Shown here one piece after another: positions 31,869 to 56,457 of a stretch of DNA of 64,000 bases; position 1 is the stretch's first letter; every line of letters starts with the position of its first letter. Made by a program: the position numbers and the translations under genes. The stretch covers positions 1,488,001 to 1,552,000 of the forward strand of contig NZ_CP076545.1 of NCBI RefSeq assembly GCF_018889955.1. The letters run 5' to 3'. Under the pieces are notes generated by a model. The model saw nothing but the letters and a program-made list of their open reading frames with translations. It ran no database searches and was not told the origin of the DNA. This stretch comes from Collinsella sp. zg1085. GTDB lineage: Bacteria; Actinomycetota; Coriobacteriia; Coriobacteriales; Coriobacteriaceae.

Positions 31869-32008
31869 ATACGCTCCTTGTTTGTCCTGTTGCACGGTCA
31901 GTATACCGCGCATTGAGTGTTAACCCAAACGCTCATACCATGACCGGCAAGACTTTGTACATACCAGGACAAAAACAAACGTTGACAGAGCGTGATTGAG
32001 CATCGAGT

Positions 32009-32123
32009 ACAAAAGGCAACCGATAGAACCGAGGGGAACAGCTATAACAAAAGGCAACCGGGTGAACCGAGGGGGAACATCGGGCACAAAAAACAACCAG
32101 CTGAACCCAAAACGGGACAATTA
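32009..32123 (+). repeat. Three imperfect 38-39-bp direct repeats
   Basis: Units start near 32009, 32047 and 32086 and share ACAAAAGGCAACC and GAACCGAGGGGAACA, with the third more diverged. They end about 8 bp before the hairpin element at 32131. Confidence 0.7.
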
Positions 32124-32130
32124 CAGCAAA

Positions 32131-32196
32131 AGGCGAAATGCCATTTCTTTAGAAACTTTTGCAAAGCTCAGTTCCCATGAAACGGGCATTTCGCCT
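32131..32196. repeat. Hairpin element A (conserved loop, private stem)
   Basis: AGGCGAAATGCC (32131-32142) and its exact complement (32185-32196) enclose a 42-nt interior containing CTTTTGCAAAGCTCAGTTCC. The interior is 31/39 identical to that of the element at 55070-55137, but the stems are unrelated. Confidence 0.8.
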
Positions 32197-36448: not shown

Positions 36449-36550
36449 ATTGTCAGGTGAACTCGACAACTATATTAACTGGAGCAAAGTTGTCGAGTCA
36501 ACTCGACAACTTTATCTTTTTTATCCATGTTGTCAGATTCACTCGACAAC
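36449..36550 (-). promoter_or_regulatory. Promoter of the AAA ATPase with three palindromic operators at 40-bp spacing
   Basis: Three 22-bp sites at 36449-36470, 36489-36510 and 36529-36550 all end in ACTCGACAAC; the middle one is a perfect 10-bp inverted repeat, the outer two degenerate in the first half. Start-to-start distance is exactly 40 bp both times. On the minus strand a -35 TTGACT (36496-36501) inside the middle site and a -10 TAATAT (36472-36477), 18 bp apart, make a good promoter, so bound protein would block RNA polymerase. Confidence 0.75.
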
Positions 36551-36614
36551 TTTATATCTCGCCGTCTCAGGGAGCACACTAACAACCTATCAAAGACCGC
36601 CGGTAAACCTGCTG

Positions 36615-51791: not shown

Positions 51792-52296
51792 AGTTTCCCT
51801 CTTTCTCTTACTTGTGTATGAATCCACGGATAAACCCCCAAATGGACTCACCTATCCTTGATGTACATGCTATGATTCGCACAAAAGTGCCAACAAGTAC
51901 GCACTTTTATGGAAGCTCATTACCCCGCGGTAAGGACTTACTCAAAGGTAAGGGGATTCACCTTGCCGTTTTGCTGAATTTGCCTCTCTGTAAGAGCAAA
52001 AAGGTATTGAGCGCTCGTAAACCGGGATTTCAAGCACCAACCGTTCACGGGTCAAAAACGACCGTTCGCCGCAGCGTGTTAAGCCTGAGCCACGCCAAAC
52101 TTCGGCATCTTGCATGCGCGTACAAAAAGCGGAGGGCACAGCGCGCAAAGCTCAGGCTGGATTCTATCCCGCACGCACACACAGCTTTTCTATAAAAAGC
52201 TCTTGAGTTGTAAAGTGTTTTACAGCATCTCAGCTTATTGCTTATATATAATGATTCAGGCAGCAAAACGGTAAACACAACACGTTGGAGGCTTGC
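51792..52296. other. Divergent intergenic region between mmsA and pyk
   Basis: No gene supported. It contains a palindrome AAAAGTGC (51883-51890) / GCACTTTT (51901-51908) about 95 bp from mmsA, a plausible operator of that cassette, and the pyk promoter near 52208-52247. Frames of 120 or so codons on both strands are antisense-like and lack ribosome-binding sites. Confidence 0.55.
52208..52247 (+). promoter_or_regulatory. pyk promoter with Rex-like inverted repeat
   Basis: TTGTAAAGTGTTTTACAG (52208-52225) is an inverted repeat resembling redox-sensor Rex sites (TTGTnAA-n4-TTnACAA). It overlaps a -35 TTTACA (52219-52224), which is 17 bp from TTATAT (52242-52247). A TATAAT also lies at 52247-52252. 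Confidence 0.5.
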
Positions 52297-53757
52297 ATGT
52301 ATAAACGCACCAAGATTGTCTGCACGATGGGTCCCGCCTGTGATGATGAAAACATCCTGCGCGAAATGATGAAAGCGGGCATGAATGTTGCACGCTTCAA
52401 TTTCTCGCATGGTTCATACGAGGAGCATCAGGGACGCATTGAGCGTGTCCGCCGTATCGCTCAAGAACTCAATCGTCCTATTGGCATTTTGCTTGACACC
52501 AAAGGTCCCGAGGTTCGCACCGGTCTGTTAAAGGACCACAAAAAAGTTGAGGTGCATACGGGAGATAAAATTATCGTTACCGCCCAGCCTACCACCGAAG
52601 ATTTTGCCGGTACCGCAGAGCATATCTCGCTTGATTATCTTGCTCTTCCCACAGAGGTTGTCGCTGGTTCGCGCATTCTGATTGATGACGGCTTGGTAGG
52701 ACTTGAGGTTGAGTCGGTCGATGGCAACGATATTCACTGCGTCGTACTCAACAACGGCCTCATTGGCGAGCGCAAGGGCGTTAATATGCCCAACGTTAAT
52801 ATCTCGCTGCCTGCCATCACCGAGCGCGACCGCCAAGACATTCTTTTTGGTCTTACGCAAAACATTGACTACATTGCTGCATCATTTATCCGTGACGGCG
52901 CTGGTGTCGAAGAAATTCGCACCCTCTGCCGCGAAAACGACGGTGAGCATGTCACTATCTTCCCCAAGATTGAGTGCGCACTGGGCGTAGAAAACTTTGA
53001 CGACATTCTTGAGCACTCTGACGGCATTATGGTCGCACGCGGCGACCTTGGTATTGAGATTGCTCCAGAGCTCGTGCCTCATATTCAAAAGAAGATTATC
53101 AAGAAGTGCAACGACGCATATAAGCCGGTAATCACCGCTACGCAGATGCTCGATTCTATGCAGCACAATCCACGCCCCACACGCGCTGAGGTTGCCGACG
53201 TTGCAAATGCTATTTATGACGGCACCGATGCGGTCATGCTCTCTGGCGAATCTGCTGCCGGTCAGTATCCTGTAGAGGCTGTTCGTATGCAAGCACATAT
53301 TGCTGCCGAAACCGAAAAGCACTTGCCTGCGCATGGCAAGCTTGAAGTTCCTGCAGGCGCACACGGTACGCGCGTTGTTAACAACGTTGTAGGACTTTCC
53401 GCAGTTAACATGGCAACTACTGTTGGGGCAAAGTGCATTACTGTTCCAACAACTACCGGACGTAGCGCGCGCTTAGTTTCGCACTTCCGGCCTAATATGC
53501 CAGTTGTTGCGTTCTCCCGTCATGAGTGGGCAGTACAGCAAATGATTATGTACTGGGGCGTTGAACCGCATCTTGCTGCTATTACTCAAGGCACTGTCAA
53601 CGGCACCATCGTGAAGGCAATTGAAACTGCCAAAGAGCTGGGCTATGTTGAAAAGGGAGACATTACCGTAGCCACTGCTGGTGACCCACGTATGTCTGTT
53701 CAGCTTGAGGATAAGATTTCTTCAACCAACGTTGCCTACGTAGCACAGGTTCGTTAA
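52297..53757 (+). CDS. pyk: Pyruvate kinase
   Basis: 486 residues from ATG 52297 (GGAGG 5 nt upstream; an in-frame ATG at 52285 is too near the site). Signatures: RTKIVCTMGPA, NFSHGSYEEH, LLDTKGPEVRTG, KIECALGVENF, MVARGDLGIE and TATQMLDSM. The C-terminal domain is complete and there is no extra PEP-utiliser domain. It makes ATP and pyruvate in glycolysis. It is transcribed alone, ending at a strong terminator. Confidence 0.97.
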   Translation: MYKRTKIVCTMGPACDDENILREMMKAGMNVARFNFSHGSYEEHQGRIERVRRIAQELNRPIGILLDTKGPEVRTGLLKDHKKVEVHTGDKIIVTAQPTTEDFAGTAEHISLDYLALPTEVVAGSRILIDDGLVGLEVESVDGNDIHCVVLNNGLIGERKGVNMPNVNISLPAITERDRQDILFGLTQNIDYIAASFIRDGAGVEEIRTLCRENDGEHVTIFPKIECALGVENFDDILEHSDGIMVARGDLGIEIAPELVPHIQKKIIKKCNDAYKPVITATQMLDSMQHNPRPTRAEVADVANAIYDGTDAVMLSGESAAGQYPVEAVRMQAHIAAETEKHLPAHGKLEVPAGAHGTRVVNNVVGLSAVNMATTVGAKCITVPTTTGRSARLVSHFRPNMPVVAFSRHEWAVQQMIMYWGVEPHLAAITQGTVNGTIVKAIETAKELGYVEKGDITVATAGDPRMSVQLEDKISSTNVAYVAQVR

Positions 53758-53851: not shown

Positions 53852-53864
53852 CAAGAGCAAATCC

Positions 53865-54000
53865 ATCTAGTGTACGAAAAAATTGCTTAGACTAAAGTAC
53901 ACTCCACTACAGTAAAGCATCTTTCCTGCGGAAATGCCGATAATCTCGCTTGTACAGACCCTCTATACTCAAGGTGCTCACAAAAAACCGTACACTAGAT
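53865..54000. repeat. 136-bp segment flanked by 12-bp perfect inverted repeats
   Basis: ATCTAGTGTACG (53865-53876) and its exact complement (53989-54000) bound the segment; a variant GCTAGTGTATCG recurs at 54083-54094. The size and ends resemble a small non-autonomous (MITE-like) element; no target duplication was confirmed. Confidence 0.5.
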
Positions 54001-54193
54001 TGATTTACTTACTAGAAACCCTGAGTTTTATAATTTCGTAGGAACACTGTTTACTCAAAGAATCCCTGTGGCTTCCCATTAAGCTAGTGTATCGCCACAG
54101 CAAGTCATCACTGCATCGTTATGCACCTGAGAAACGCTATTGCACTGCTCTGAGGACTATTGCTCTTACCGCATCGATAAGTTACACCTGTCA

Positions 54194-54358
54194 CTTTGGC
54201 AAAAATGACGAAAAAGTACTCTCTATAACCCAGCGGGTTAGTATTTGTTTTGCAAAACCGCAGGTAGATGAGTTGAGAGTAAGTTGACAACTGTCGCTTT
54301 ACGTCAAATTCGTCAAAAATGACAGATTTTTGCGTCAAATTAGTCATTTTTGCCAAAG
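54194..54358. repeat. Inverted-repeat element 1 (shared centre, private arms)
   Basis: CTTTGGCAAAAATGAC (54194-54209) is exactly complementary to 54343-54358. The centre holds AACCCAGCGGGTTA at 54227 and GCAGGTAGATGAGTTG at 54260-54275, both shared with the next element. Extra copies of the arm motif (GTCAAAAATGAC) lie inside. Confidence 0.65.
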
Positions 54359-54400
54359 AGCAGGTCAGCGGTATTGCACGGGCGATTCTAGTCCAACCCT

Positions 54401-54566
54401 TTTTGACAGAAATGGGCAATTTGGCAGTGTAGAACCCCCGTGGGTTATTCGCTATTTTATAAACCTGCAGGTAGATGAGTTGCAGTTTTTCATACTACAG
54501 GGGGTTTATTGCCAGATTGCCCCTTTTTGTCAGTTTTTACTACCAAATTGCCCGTTTCTGTCAAAA
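54401..54566. repeat. Inverted-repeat element 2 (shared centre, private arms)
   Basis: 24-bp arms (54401-54424 and 54543-54566) are complementary at 23 positions; a third arm-like copy lies near 54511-54532. The centre repeats AACCC...GGGTTA (54433) and the exact 16-mer GCAGGTAGATGAGTTG (54467-54482), at almost the same spacing as in element 1, although the arms differ. Confidence 0.65.
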
Positions 54567-54695
54567 CAGCTTATACAATTTAGCGGTGTTTTGAAATCTG
54601 TTCACGCAGGAGATAAACGAGCTACTTTTTTAGAAGTGTTCACGAACTATTCTCCTTGATTTGAGATTTTGCTCCAAATACGGAAAACAGGCGAA

Positions 54696-54759
54696 AGACC
54701 AAGGTATTGCGTTCGGAGAATTCTGCGAAGCACATTCGGAGAATGCAATACCTTGGTCT
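54696..54759. repeat. Hairpin element C (conserved loop, private stem)
   Basis: AGACCAAGGTATTGC (54696-54710) and its exact 15-bp complement (54745-54759) enclose a 34-nt loop containing GAATTCTGCGAAGCACATTC. The loop is nearly the same as that of element D. Confidence 0.85.
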
Positions 54760-54797
54760 CATCTGAATTGAGTAACTAGCAGTTTTGCAGAGTGCAC

Positions 54798-54827
54798 GCT
54801 TCTAGGGAAACTTTCGAGTAGAAAAGC
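54798..54827. repeat. Degenerate copy E of the hairpin core
   Basis: TTCTAGGGAAACTTTCGAG resembles the left half of the element B core, followed by TAGAAAAG. The outer stem is not recognisable, so it looks like a decayed copy. Confidence 0.4.
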
Positions 54828-54957
54828 CTTTGAAGCGGGATTTCTTTCTAGTTGCGTTAGAGCTTGCAACCCCAACCCTTTCATCTCATACGCGCTGCTT
54901 GTGAATGACGGGGTGTGGGGCGAGCTGAGCGCTGTATGTGCACTTACTCTAAGAGAA

Positions 54958-55019
54958 GGACGAATGATTGCGTTCGGAGAATTTTGCGAAGCACATTCGG
55001 AAAGCACAAGCATTCGTTC
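54958..55019. repeat. Hairpin element D (conserved loop, private stem)
   Basis: The left arm GGACGAATGATTG pairs with CAAGCATTCGTTC (55007-55019) with few mismatches. The loop contains GAATTTTGCGAAGCACATTC, one base different from element C over that stretch; the stem is unrelated to C. Confidence 0.75.
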
Positions 55020-55069
55020 AGTTGAGATGGAGCTACTGTACAAAGCAGGTGAGATAGAGCTTCCACTTA

Positions 55070-55137
55070 GGGGTGGCATAGCTTTTCTAAGGGAACTTTC
55101 GCGAAGCGCAGTTCCCGTGAAAAGACTATGCCACCCC
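55070..55137. repeat. Hairpin element B (conserved loop, private stem)
   Basis: GGGGTGGCATAG (55070-55081) pairs exactly with CTATGCCACCCC (55126-55137). Inside, CTTTTC/GAAAAG and GGGAAC/GTTCCC extend the hairpin around TTTCGCGAAGCGCA. The interior is 31/39 identical to that of element A at 32.1 kb. Confidence 0.85.
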
Positions 55138-55166
55138 ATACGTTTACAACTCATTCATCCAACTTA

Positions 55167-55191
55167 GGCGACGTGAAAAGCCTACGTCGCC
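55167..55191. repeat. Short palindrome F, possibly a deleted hairpin element
   Basis: GGCGACGT (55167-55174) and its complement (55184-55191) surround GAAAAGCCT. GTGAAAAG also ends the core of element B just before the right arm, so F may be an element that lost most of its loop. Confidence 0.45.
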
Positions 55192-55287
55192 CAGCAAGCT
55201 TGCGAATCAGTAGTTCAGTTAGCAAAGTGAAACCAGTGCACCAACCACACCCCACACCCCGCCTTCGGGAAACAAGCAGCAACGTAA

Positions 55288-56370
55288 CTACAAATATGCA
55301 CCAACATTCAAGTCCGGTTTTGCACCATGCTTTTGCATCGCACCCGTGCTTTCGCGCGGCAACAAAAACGGGCGTACAATAGCCTGATGCACATCAACAA
55401 CCCGCGGTGCTGGCTCACCAGTTAACTCCCCTAGCTTTGCAAGGTCAAACTGCTCCATGATTTGTTGCACCGCACGTCGGCCGACCTCATACCCTGATGG
55501 AACAACCGTCGTCAACGGTACACCACCAGTCCATGCAAGCGGATTTCCATCGCAACCGGCGACGAGCATATCATCTGGCACCTGAAGTCCTGCTGCCTGC
55601 ACTCCTGCAATTGCACCTACCGCAAGCACATCGGAAAGCGCAAGTAATGCATCGGGACGCTCTGACTTTTGCCGTGCTGCAAGACGCTCACCCAGCTCAT
55701 AGCCATCACTTGCCGAGCACCAATCACCCTCTTCGATAAACTCAAAATGTACCTCAAGAGACTGCTGCGCAACACTAGCAATTCCTTGGGCACGATCTTG
55801 GTGTGCGCGATGTTTTGAAATTCCCAATACCGCAATATGTCGCGCACCCGCTGCAATAAGGTGCTCAGCAACAAGCGTTCCTTCAGCCTGGCTATCGGCC
55901 ACCGCAAAATAACCCGGTTCACTCCCCTGCACATCCATGCAGCTCAGCGCAGTTCGAGAAGGAACAGCCATATTACGCAGAGGATGGCCATCAAAACTCT
56001 GTATCACAAGCCCAGCAACTTGAGCGCTCAAAAACTGCTGTATGCACACAGCCATAGCTGCCACATCATCGGCAGCGTTTGCAATCCAGACGTGATGCCC
56101 ATAACGCTCTGCCTCACGTTGCACACCACTCACAATCTGCAAAGAATAGCCGTGCGTTAGGCGCGGCACCACAAGACCCAGCATGGTGCTTTCACCACCT
56201 GCCAGCAGACGAGCGCTCTGATTAGGGGTAAAGCCCAAGGTCTCCATAGCGTTTTGTACACGCTTTTTTGTAGAAGAACGCACGCGATTAGGATGATTGA
56301 GCACGTTTGAAACCGTACCCAAGGCAACACCCGCTTCGCGTGCGACATCTTGAATGGTTGGACGAGCCAT
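55288..56370 (-). CDS. LacI-family transcriptional regulator
   Basis: 360 residues from ATG 56370 (AAGGAG 8 nt upstream). N-terminal LacI helix-turn-helix TIQDVAREAGVALGTVSNVL with the hinge NQSARLLAGG, then a periplasmic-binding-protein-like sensor domain. A C-terminal extension of about 20 residues follows PFLLPRES. It lies 87 bp behind a ROK sugar kinase, so it probably controls sugar use. Ligand unknown. Confidence 0.93.
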   Translation of the reverse strand: MARPTIQDVAREAGVALGTVSNVLNHPNRVRSSTKKRVQNAMETLGFTPNQSARLLAGGESTMLGLVVPRLTHGYSLQIVSGVQREAERYGHHVWIANAADDVAAMAVCIQQFLSAQVAGLVIQSFDGHPLRNMAVPSRTALSCMDVQGSEPGYFAVADSQAEGTLVAEHLIAAGARHIAVLGISKHRAHQDRAQGIASVAQQSLEVHFEFIEEGDWCSASDGYELGERLAARQKSERPDALLALSDVLAVGAIAGVQAAGLQVPDDMLVAGCDGNPLAWTGGVPLTTVVPSGYEVGRRAVQQIMEQFDLAKLGELTGEPAPRVVDVHQAIVRPFLLPRESTGAMQKHGAKPDLNVGAYL

Positions 56371-56457
56371 GCGACAAGCTCCTTTTTTGATGCGCTTCAA
56401 GGAGCATCTATTGTAGCATGAGCTTGTGGCTCAATCCTATATTTAGGCTGGTAATCC

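Follow-up and report, generated by a model that had tools for sequence, protein, structure and literature searches.

Collinsella hairpins with a conserved tip and self-complementary stems that change between loci and species

The window analysed here is a stretch of 64,000 nucleotides (positions 1488001-1552000) of the 1.72-Mb single-contig genome of Collinsella sp. zg1085. Between a pyruvate kinase gene (52285-53757, forward strand) and a gene for a LacI-family regulator (55288-56400, reverse strand) it contains a non-coding composite repeat, about 1436 bp long, at approximately 53852-55287 on the forward strand, whose outer end abuts the stop codon of the regulator (55288-55290). The parts of the composite, all given on the forward strand, include a 168-bp element with terminal inverted repeats (TTTTGACAGAAAcGGGCAATTTGG ends; 54401-54568), which also occurs as solo copies, and a sub-element of about 400 bp (54887-55288) bounded by the inverted repeats TATACGCnGCTGCTTGT..GGCGGGGTGTGGGG. 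Three hairpins, C, D and B, lie within the composite; D and B fall inside the sub-element together with a tandem array of about 55-bp units (start at 55118-55200), which runs to 1 to 4 units per locus and whose first unit takes in the right arm of B. The fourth hairpin of the window, A, stands alone at 32131-32196 (forward strand).

The hairpins are built in layers that run, from outside to inside, through a long stem, an internal loop of 3x3 or 3x2 (in C, D and B), 4-7 bp of helix, an asymmetric internal loop (2x1 in C, D and B, 2x2 in other species), 2-3 G-C-rich pairs and a G-N-A triloop. Hairpin C (54696-54759) has the stem AGACCAAGGTATTGC/GCAATACCTTGGTCT, a 3x3 purine internal loop, GAAT/ATTC, a TC/C internal loop and a TGC-GAA-GCA tip. 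The tip of D (54958-55019) is that of C on a different stem, GGACGAATGATTGC, which is imperfect in the window, where it has several mismatches, and near-perfect in most sister copies of the genome. In B (55070-55137) the stem GGGGTGGCATAG is followed by CTTTTC/GAAAAG, GGGAACT/AGTTCCC, a TT/C internal loop and a CGC-GAA-GCG tip, and A is a solo relative of B with a stem of its own (AGGCGAAATGCC) and an AAA loop, matched by our covariance model R2 with an E value of 1.7e-13. Perfect arms extend over 15 bp in C and 12 bp in both B and A. The initial annotation had described these four hairpins with complementary outer arms, and they are indeed present and far beyond chance, the window having 6 inverted repeats with arms of at least 13 bp and loops of at most 40 against 0, 0 and 0 in shuffled sequence. 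Two other repeats of the window may be recorded here: a degenerate tandem repeat (ACAAAAGGCAACCG..GAACCGAGGGGAACA) at 31960-32130, immediately 5' of hairpin A, and, within 93 bp at 36461-36553, several mutually inverted copies of the GTTGTCGAGT type.

Searching the genome with the loops, with local DNA and with two covariance models gave 22+22 matches to the loop pattern (6+7 for the reversed control) and 18+20 to the core C/D pattern (0+0 in the control). The composite itself, complete or partial, occupies about 28 loci, frequently with two copies placed head to head, and C, D and B are fixed slots within it, each slot keeping the same stem at all loci, with 20 same-stem copies of C, 19 of D and 28 of B. 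Four loci (260271, 1275529, 1297466 and 1649058) carry chimeric hairpins with the left arm of C and the right arm of D, as would be expected from deletion between the cores that C and D have in common. Solo relatives with other stems are A in the window, a hairpin E at 1362097 and a pair beside a tRNA-Ser gene at 277093 and 277401. The claim of the initial annotation that each copy has a private stem must accordingly be divided: it holds between slots, between solo loci and between species, and it does not hold among the copies of one slot, so that the genome-wide copies with identical stems that the annotation itself had named as grounds for refutation do exist in the window genome. One ancestral set of C, D and B was probably caught in the 1.4-kb composite and then spread to about 28 loci in the window species, and such capture and spread would make the stems constant within each slot. 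In record L132, a tRNA-Ser gene at 1973-2062 is followed by two direct repeats of about 135 bp, both of which contain a hairpin and duplicate the 3' end of the tRNA; these repeats resemble the att sites that an integrated element leaves behind.

The composite has the terminal inverted repeats and the lack of coding capacity by which MITEs are known, most copies being without a long ORF, and it shares with MITEs both sub-elements bounded by terminal inverted repeats and a large number of non-coding copies (PMC10969869). It was absent from the 44 other genomes of the genus. No clear target-site duplication was seen in the flanks, and a phage or plasmid origin was rejected since neither a phage collection nor a plasmid collection gave a match (0 in each). 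No replication-strand bias of the composites was seen (12 versus 17, counted by eye). The region between 642 and 1115 kb of the genome, 470 kb that take in the replication terminus (placed by the GC-skew switch near 930 kb), is free of copies, for which the probability under a uniform distribution is about 0.001, judged post hoc. One could regard the hairpins as passive cargo of such ordinary MITE-type elements, with no role of their own and with a tip that is common by descent alone, and this would suit both the terminal inverted repeats of the composite that houses C, D and B and the existence of a minimal copy of the 400-bp sub-element, elsewhere in the genome, with B alone inside. We think this unlikely: it departs from the fact that, in C. 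aerofaciens and its relatives, hairpins occupy three conserved loci outside any composite, and plain descent would not give a tip that stays constant while the stems turn over.

The wider distribution of the family was followed by its tip. The tip pattern RAASTTCGCGAAGCCCASTTY is present in 22 of 45 Collinsella genomes, with 0 matches for the reversed pattern, and covariance model R2 recovers the tip in 11 of the 44 that remain when the window genome is set aside; most of the relatives sampled are represented by a single genome for each species. Among 299 genomes of the order Collinsella alone is clearly positive, the 254 genomes outside the genus giving 3 with a one-mismatch tip match against 1 for the reversed control, and when genome contigs of 84,980 species were scanned, the hosts of the tip were again Collinsella. 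That scan returned four exact matches elsewhere, single ones in Pelagicoccus, Planctomycetota, Armatimonadetes and Pseudomonas, and viral contigs returned two; all six are without complementary flanks and are chance matches. Tips without such flanks do occur, then, as a few exact matches outside Collinsella. The C/D-type pattern had no match in viral contigs and the B-type pattern none in genome contigs.

In the other Collinsella species the tips cap stems of 25-35 bp that differ in sequence. Of the three conserved loci, alpha is next to the MGLFKKK gene, beta lies on the upstream side of the gene for the large surface protein, and gamma is at the 3' end of carB. At alpha (L191, L188, L205 and L206), pairs of hairpins 191 bp apart surround changing genes (an AEC transporter, a LacI protein, an 842-aa ORF) next to a conserved small gene, and the locus is possibly a hot spot where recombination between the paired hairpins exchanges genes. 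At beta, the hairpin of several Collinsella (L158, L163, L168, L172 and L175, at 1501) has lost its right arm, which is replaced by GTATGGTCTGTGTAATACCAG at one fixed junction. A C. aerofaciens-type genome (G002; L249-L268) has 49 inverted repeats with arms of at least 13 bp across 400 kb, whereas shuffled sequence gives about 1, and the 49 include several repeated families, for example GTTGCGGTGAAATACGGACT and AACCACCACAAAGG[GGACAGGCA].

The tip is the constrained part of the family, and the stem is free in sequence provided that its arms are complementary. Of 101 copies, 98 have a GNA triloop (40 of 42 C/D copies, 28 of 29 of the B class and 30 of 30 from other Collinsella), and all four bases, A, T, C and G, occur at its middle position. 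Mean complementarity of the arms is 0.94 within a copy, chimeras included, as against 0.62 between copies, and Watson-Crick pairs make up 415 of the 416 counted over 16 non-chimeric hairpins. As a family, across slots, loci and species, the combination of a conserved tip with changing self-complementary stems is real.

How the stems change is best seen at the most variable of the three Collinsella loci, where twelve stem variants are available. Here 20 of 33 pairs have changed on both sides, and a tally over the variants gives 80 double-changed cells, 1 one-sided change (a G.U) and 0 unpaired, numbers that come from an allele series of about 20 related genomes and represent change events that are not fully independent. 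The covariation score of the twelve variants is 0.575 as compared to 0.143 after shuffling (0 of 500), all shuffles and slides being far lower, and strong covariation is found in C/D too; the two arms of these hairpins change together. While the 90-bp flanks are near-identical between strains, the tip has been inverted relative to them in one case (two records, L171/L185, against L154, L161 and L164). In the window genome, the B copy at 1598891 has had its right arm rewritten as the exact complement of the left, a change of length included, and the B copy at 1275646 is inverted within its own composite. Template switching between the arms of inverted repeats is documented to yield homogenised arms and inverted spacers (PMC8604942), and both the concerted change of arms and the inversion of the spacer between them are found here; copying from arm to arm through template switching explains the double changes, the inverted tip and the homogenised arms alike.

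An alternative to be weighed against template switching is that the hairpins are structured RNAs, either long hairpins of 3' UTRs or structures that stop transcription or stabilise RNA, with a protein-bound tip and stems kept by compensatory selection. The apex, the internal loops and the stem all make good RNA folds, the covariation in C/D and in other Collinsella is strong, and hairpins lie close downstream of carB, polA, tRNA-Ser and many other genes, the composite end moreover abutting stop codons. Stepwise compensation should, however, leave G.U intermediates, and with 80 double changes beside a single G.U and nothing unpaired the observed series would be hard to reach step by step; the rapid compensatory evolution of an RNA, one of three explanations offered in the initial annotation, is disfavoured in that form. 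Inversion of the tip at a fixed locus also speaks against it, as does the orientation of the tip strand, which at two sites is sense to the nearest gene but antisense to it at A, carB, polA (G040) and the tRNA-Ser pair, a mixture that does not support a consistent role in the transcript. Nor are the hairpins intrinsic terminators, defined by a GC-rich stem and a T run: they have no T tract, and a scan for a stem plus T run did not list C, D or B, its 5-pair match at 55063-55076 touching only the foot of B. Rfam 15 gave no match at the gathering score, returning only a tRNA elsewhere in the window and weak matches far under the cut-off. The decay of C and D copies in the window genome, with G.T on the forward strand in 45 cells and A.C in 21 (events not independent), fits RNA pairing too and does not discriminate. 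We consider an RNA role possible and, on this evidence, doubtful, bearing in mind that the explanations compared here are not all mutually exclusive.

Our preferred reading is that the hairpins are probably DNA palindromes of an intergenic repeat family specific to the genus Collinsella, whose arms are rewritten by template switching. The tip would let one strand fold back on itself during replication or cruciform extrusion, and DNA polymerase would then switch template between the arms, so that one arm is copied onto the other or the tip is inverted. In this way template switching could keep stems complementary while their sequence drifts, and a stem that drifts with its complementarity kept would lead each locus to gain a stem of its own. 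Of the other two ideas in the initial annotation, insertion that copies flanking DNA in inverted form came closest of the three, in that the copying fits the double changes, the tip inversion and the homogenised arms if it takes place from arm to arm, and stems acting as address tags find no support. The likeness to quasipalindromes subject to template switching extends to homogenised arms, an inverted spacer and multi-base changes made at once (PMC8604942, PMC7202029), but quasipalindromes are mutational hot spots in unrelated sequences, whereas the Collinsella hairpins are a dispersed family with differing arms and a conserved spacer, the tip. By analogy, then, they would work like a quasipalindrome with a constrained spacer.

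As to the tip, d(GCGNAGC) is an exceptionally stable DNA minihairpin (PMC4686876), and the Collinsella tips have the G-N-A loop, the free N and the two or more closing G-C pairs of such a minihairpin. The hairpins of the early promoters of phage N4 require the loop G, the loop A and the closing G:C pair for extrusion from supercoiled DNA; they too have a three-base loop with a conserved G and A, a G:C closing pair and variable stem bases, and one strand alone makes the ultra-stable loop (PMC4496689). Their stems, on the other hand, are short (about 7 bp) and serve the virion RNA polymerase, a context that the Collinsella hairpins do not have, and we treat the likeness of the tip to d(GCGNAGC) and to the N4 hairpins as a lead. 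With the DNA parameters of ViennaRNA the GNA strand was not preferred, and for C and D the exact tip given by the RNA parameters was not returned; the DNA energy model was uninformative and was dropped as an arbiter between the strands. The tip might be kept because a factor that binds single-stranded DNA or hairpins recognises it, and this is the step of our account that we hold least firmly.

Several known repeats share part of this design. REP, REPIN and BIME sequences are likewise intergenic palindromes, sometimes in inverted pairs, with strand-specific hairpin features, and REPs and REPINs are defined by a tetranucleotide tag, GTAG or CGTC, at the stem foot and by their association with RAYT proteins (PMC3733652, PMC8266576). 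That the Collinsella hairpins are REP/REPIN-like repeats, moved as single-stranded hairpins by a Y1 (RAYT) transposase, might be suggested by their intergenic position, their dispersed copies, the inverted pairs 191 bp apart and the presence of Y1 proteins in 39 of the 45 genomes of the genus. Yet the window genome, which has the most copies, has no Y1 protein (0 matches to PF01797); neither tag is at the feet of C, D, B and A or of the other Collinsella hairpins when these are read directly; and the variable stems of 25-35 bp are far longer than those of REPs and are not conserved, the tip being the conserved part. Membership thus fails on the tag, on stem conservation and on the transposase, and we regard this origin as very unlikely. 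The attC sites of integrons have conserved recombination boxes at the base of the stem and a tip that varies. Like the Collinsella hairpins they conserve structure over sequence, have unpaired stem bases and give each hairpin a private sequence, but membership fails here also, the Collinsella hairpins being the reverse of attC in that they vary at the stem base and are conserved at the tip. From MITEs the family differs in that the hairpins of other Collinsella species lie outside the composite. In the open-licence literature we found no description of such a hairpin family in Collinsella.

The composite of the window species is not placed at random with respect to genes. At 21 of the 28 loci its B end points toward the 3' end of a gene (P = 0.006). 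Wherever an outer end was identified and faces the 3' end of a gene, in 13 cases (55287/55288 in the window and 12 other loci), it falls between -9 and +9 bp of a stop codon; for the control, solo copies of the 168-bp element next to it, the distance is 47-540 bp. Such precision is the best reason to think that the composite, the hairpin family left aside, either acts at the 3' ends of genes or targets them, and an association with gene 3' ends would fit an RNA role too. Taken further, and held only tentatively, our reading would be of a novel type of bacterial DNA repeat whose family identity lies in the tip alone, recognised as folded single-stranded DNA by a candidate Collinsella factor, and whose stem template switching rewrites again and again into a perfect palindrome private to each locus; in one lineage the set would have become a module of gene 3' ends, landing exactly behind the stop codon.

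Repeat families are usually recognised by conserved ends or stems, and a family conserved at the tip only, as in Collinsella, would thus be missed or split by standard searches for repeats and RNAs. The alleles of these hairpins are a natural series of arm-homogenisation and spacer-inversion events through which template switching may be quantified in bacteria from nature. The window species, a gut bacterium, and its relatives in Collinsella apparently hold a natural record of a mutation process that has been studied mostly in the laboratory, and with this family one can test cleanly whether genomes select for a tip motif that is known to be ultra-stable in DNA.
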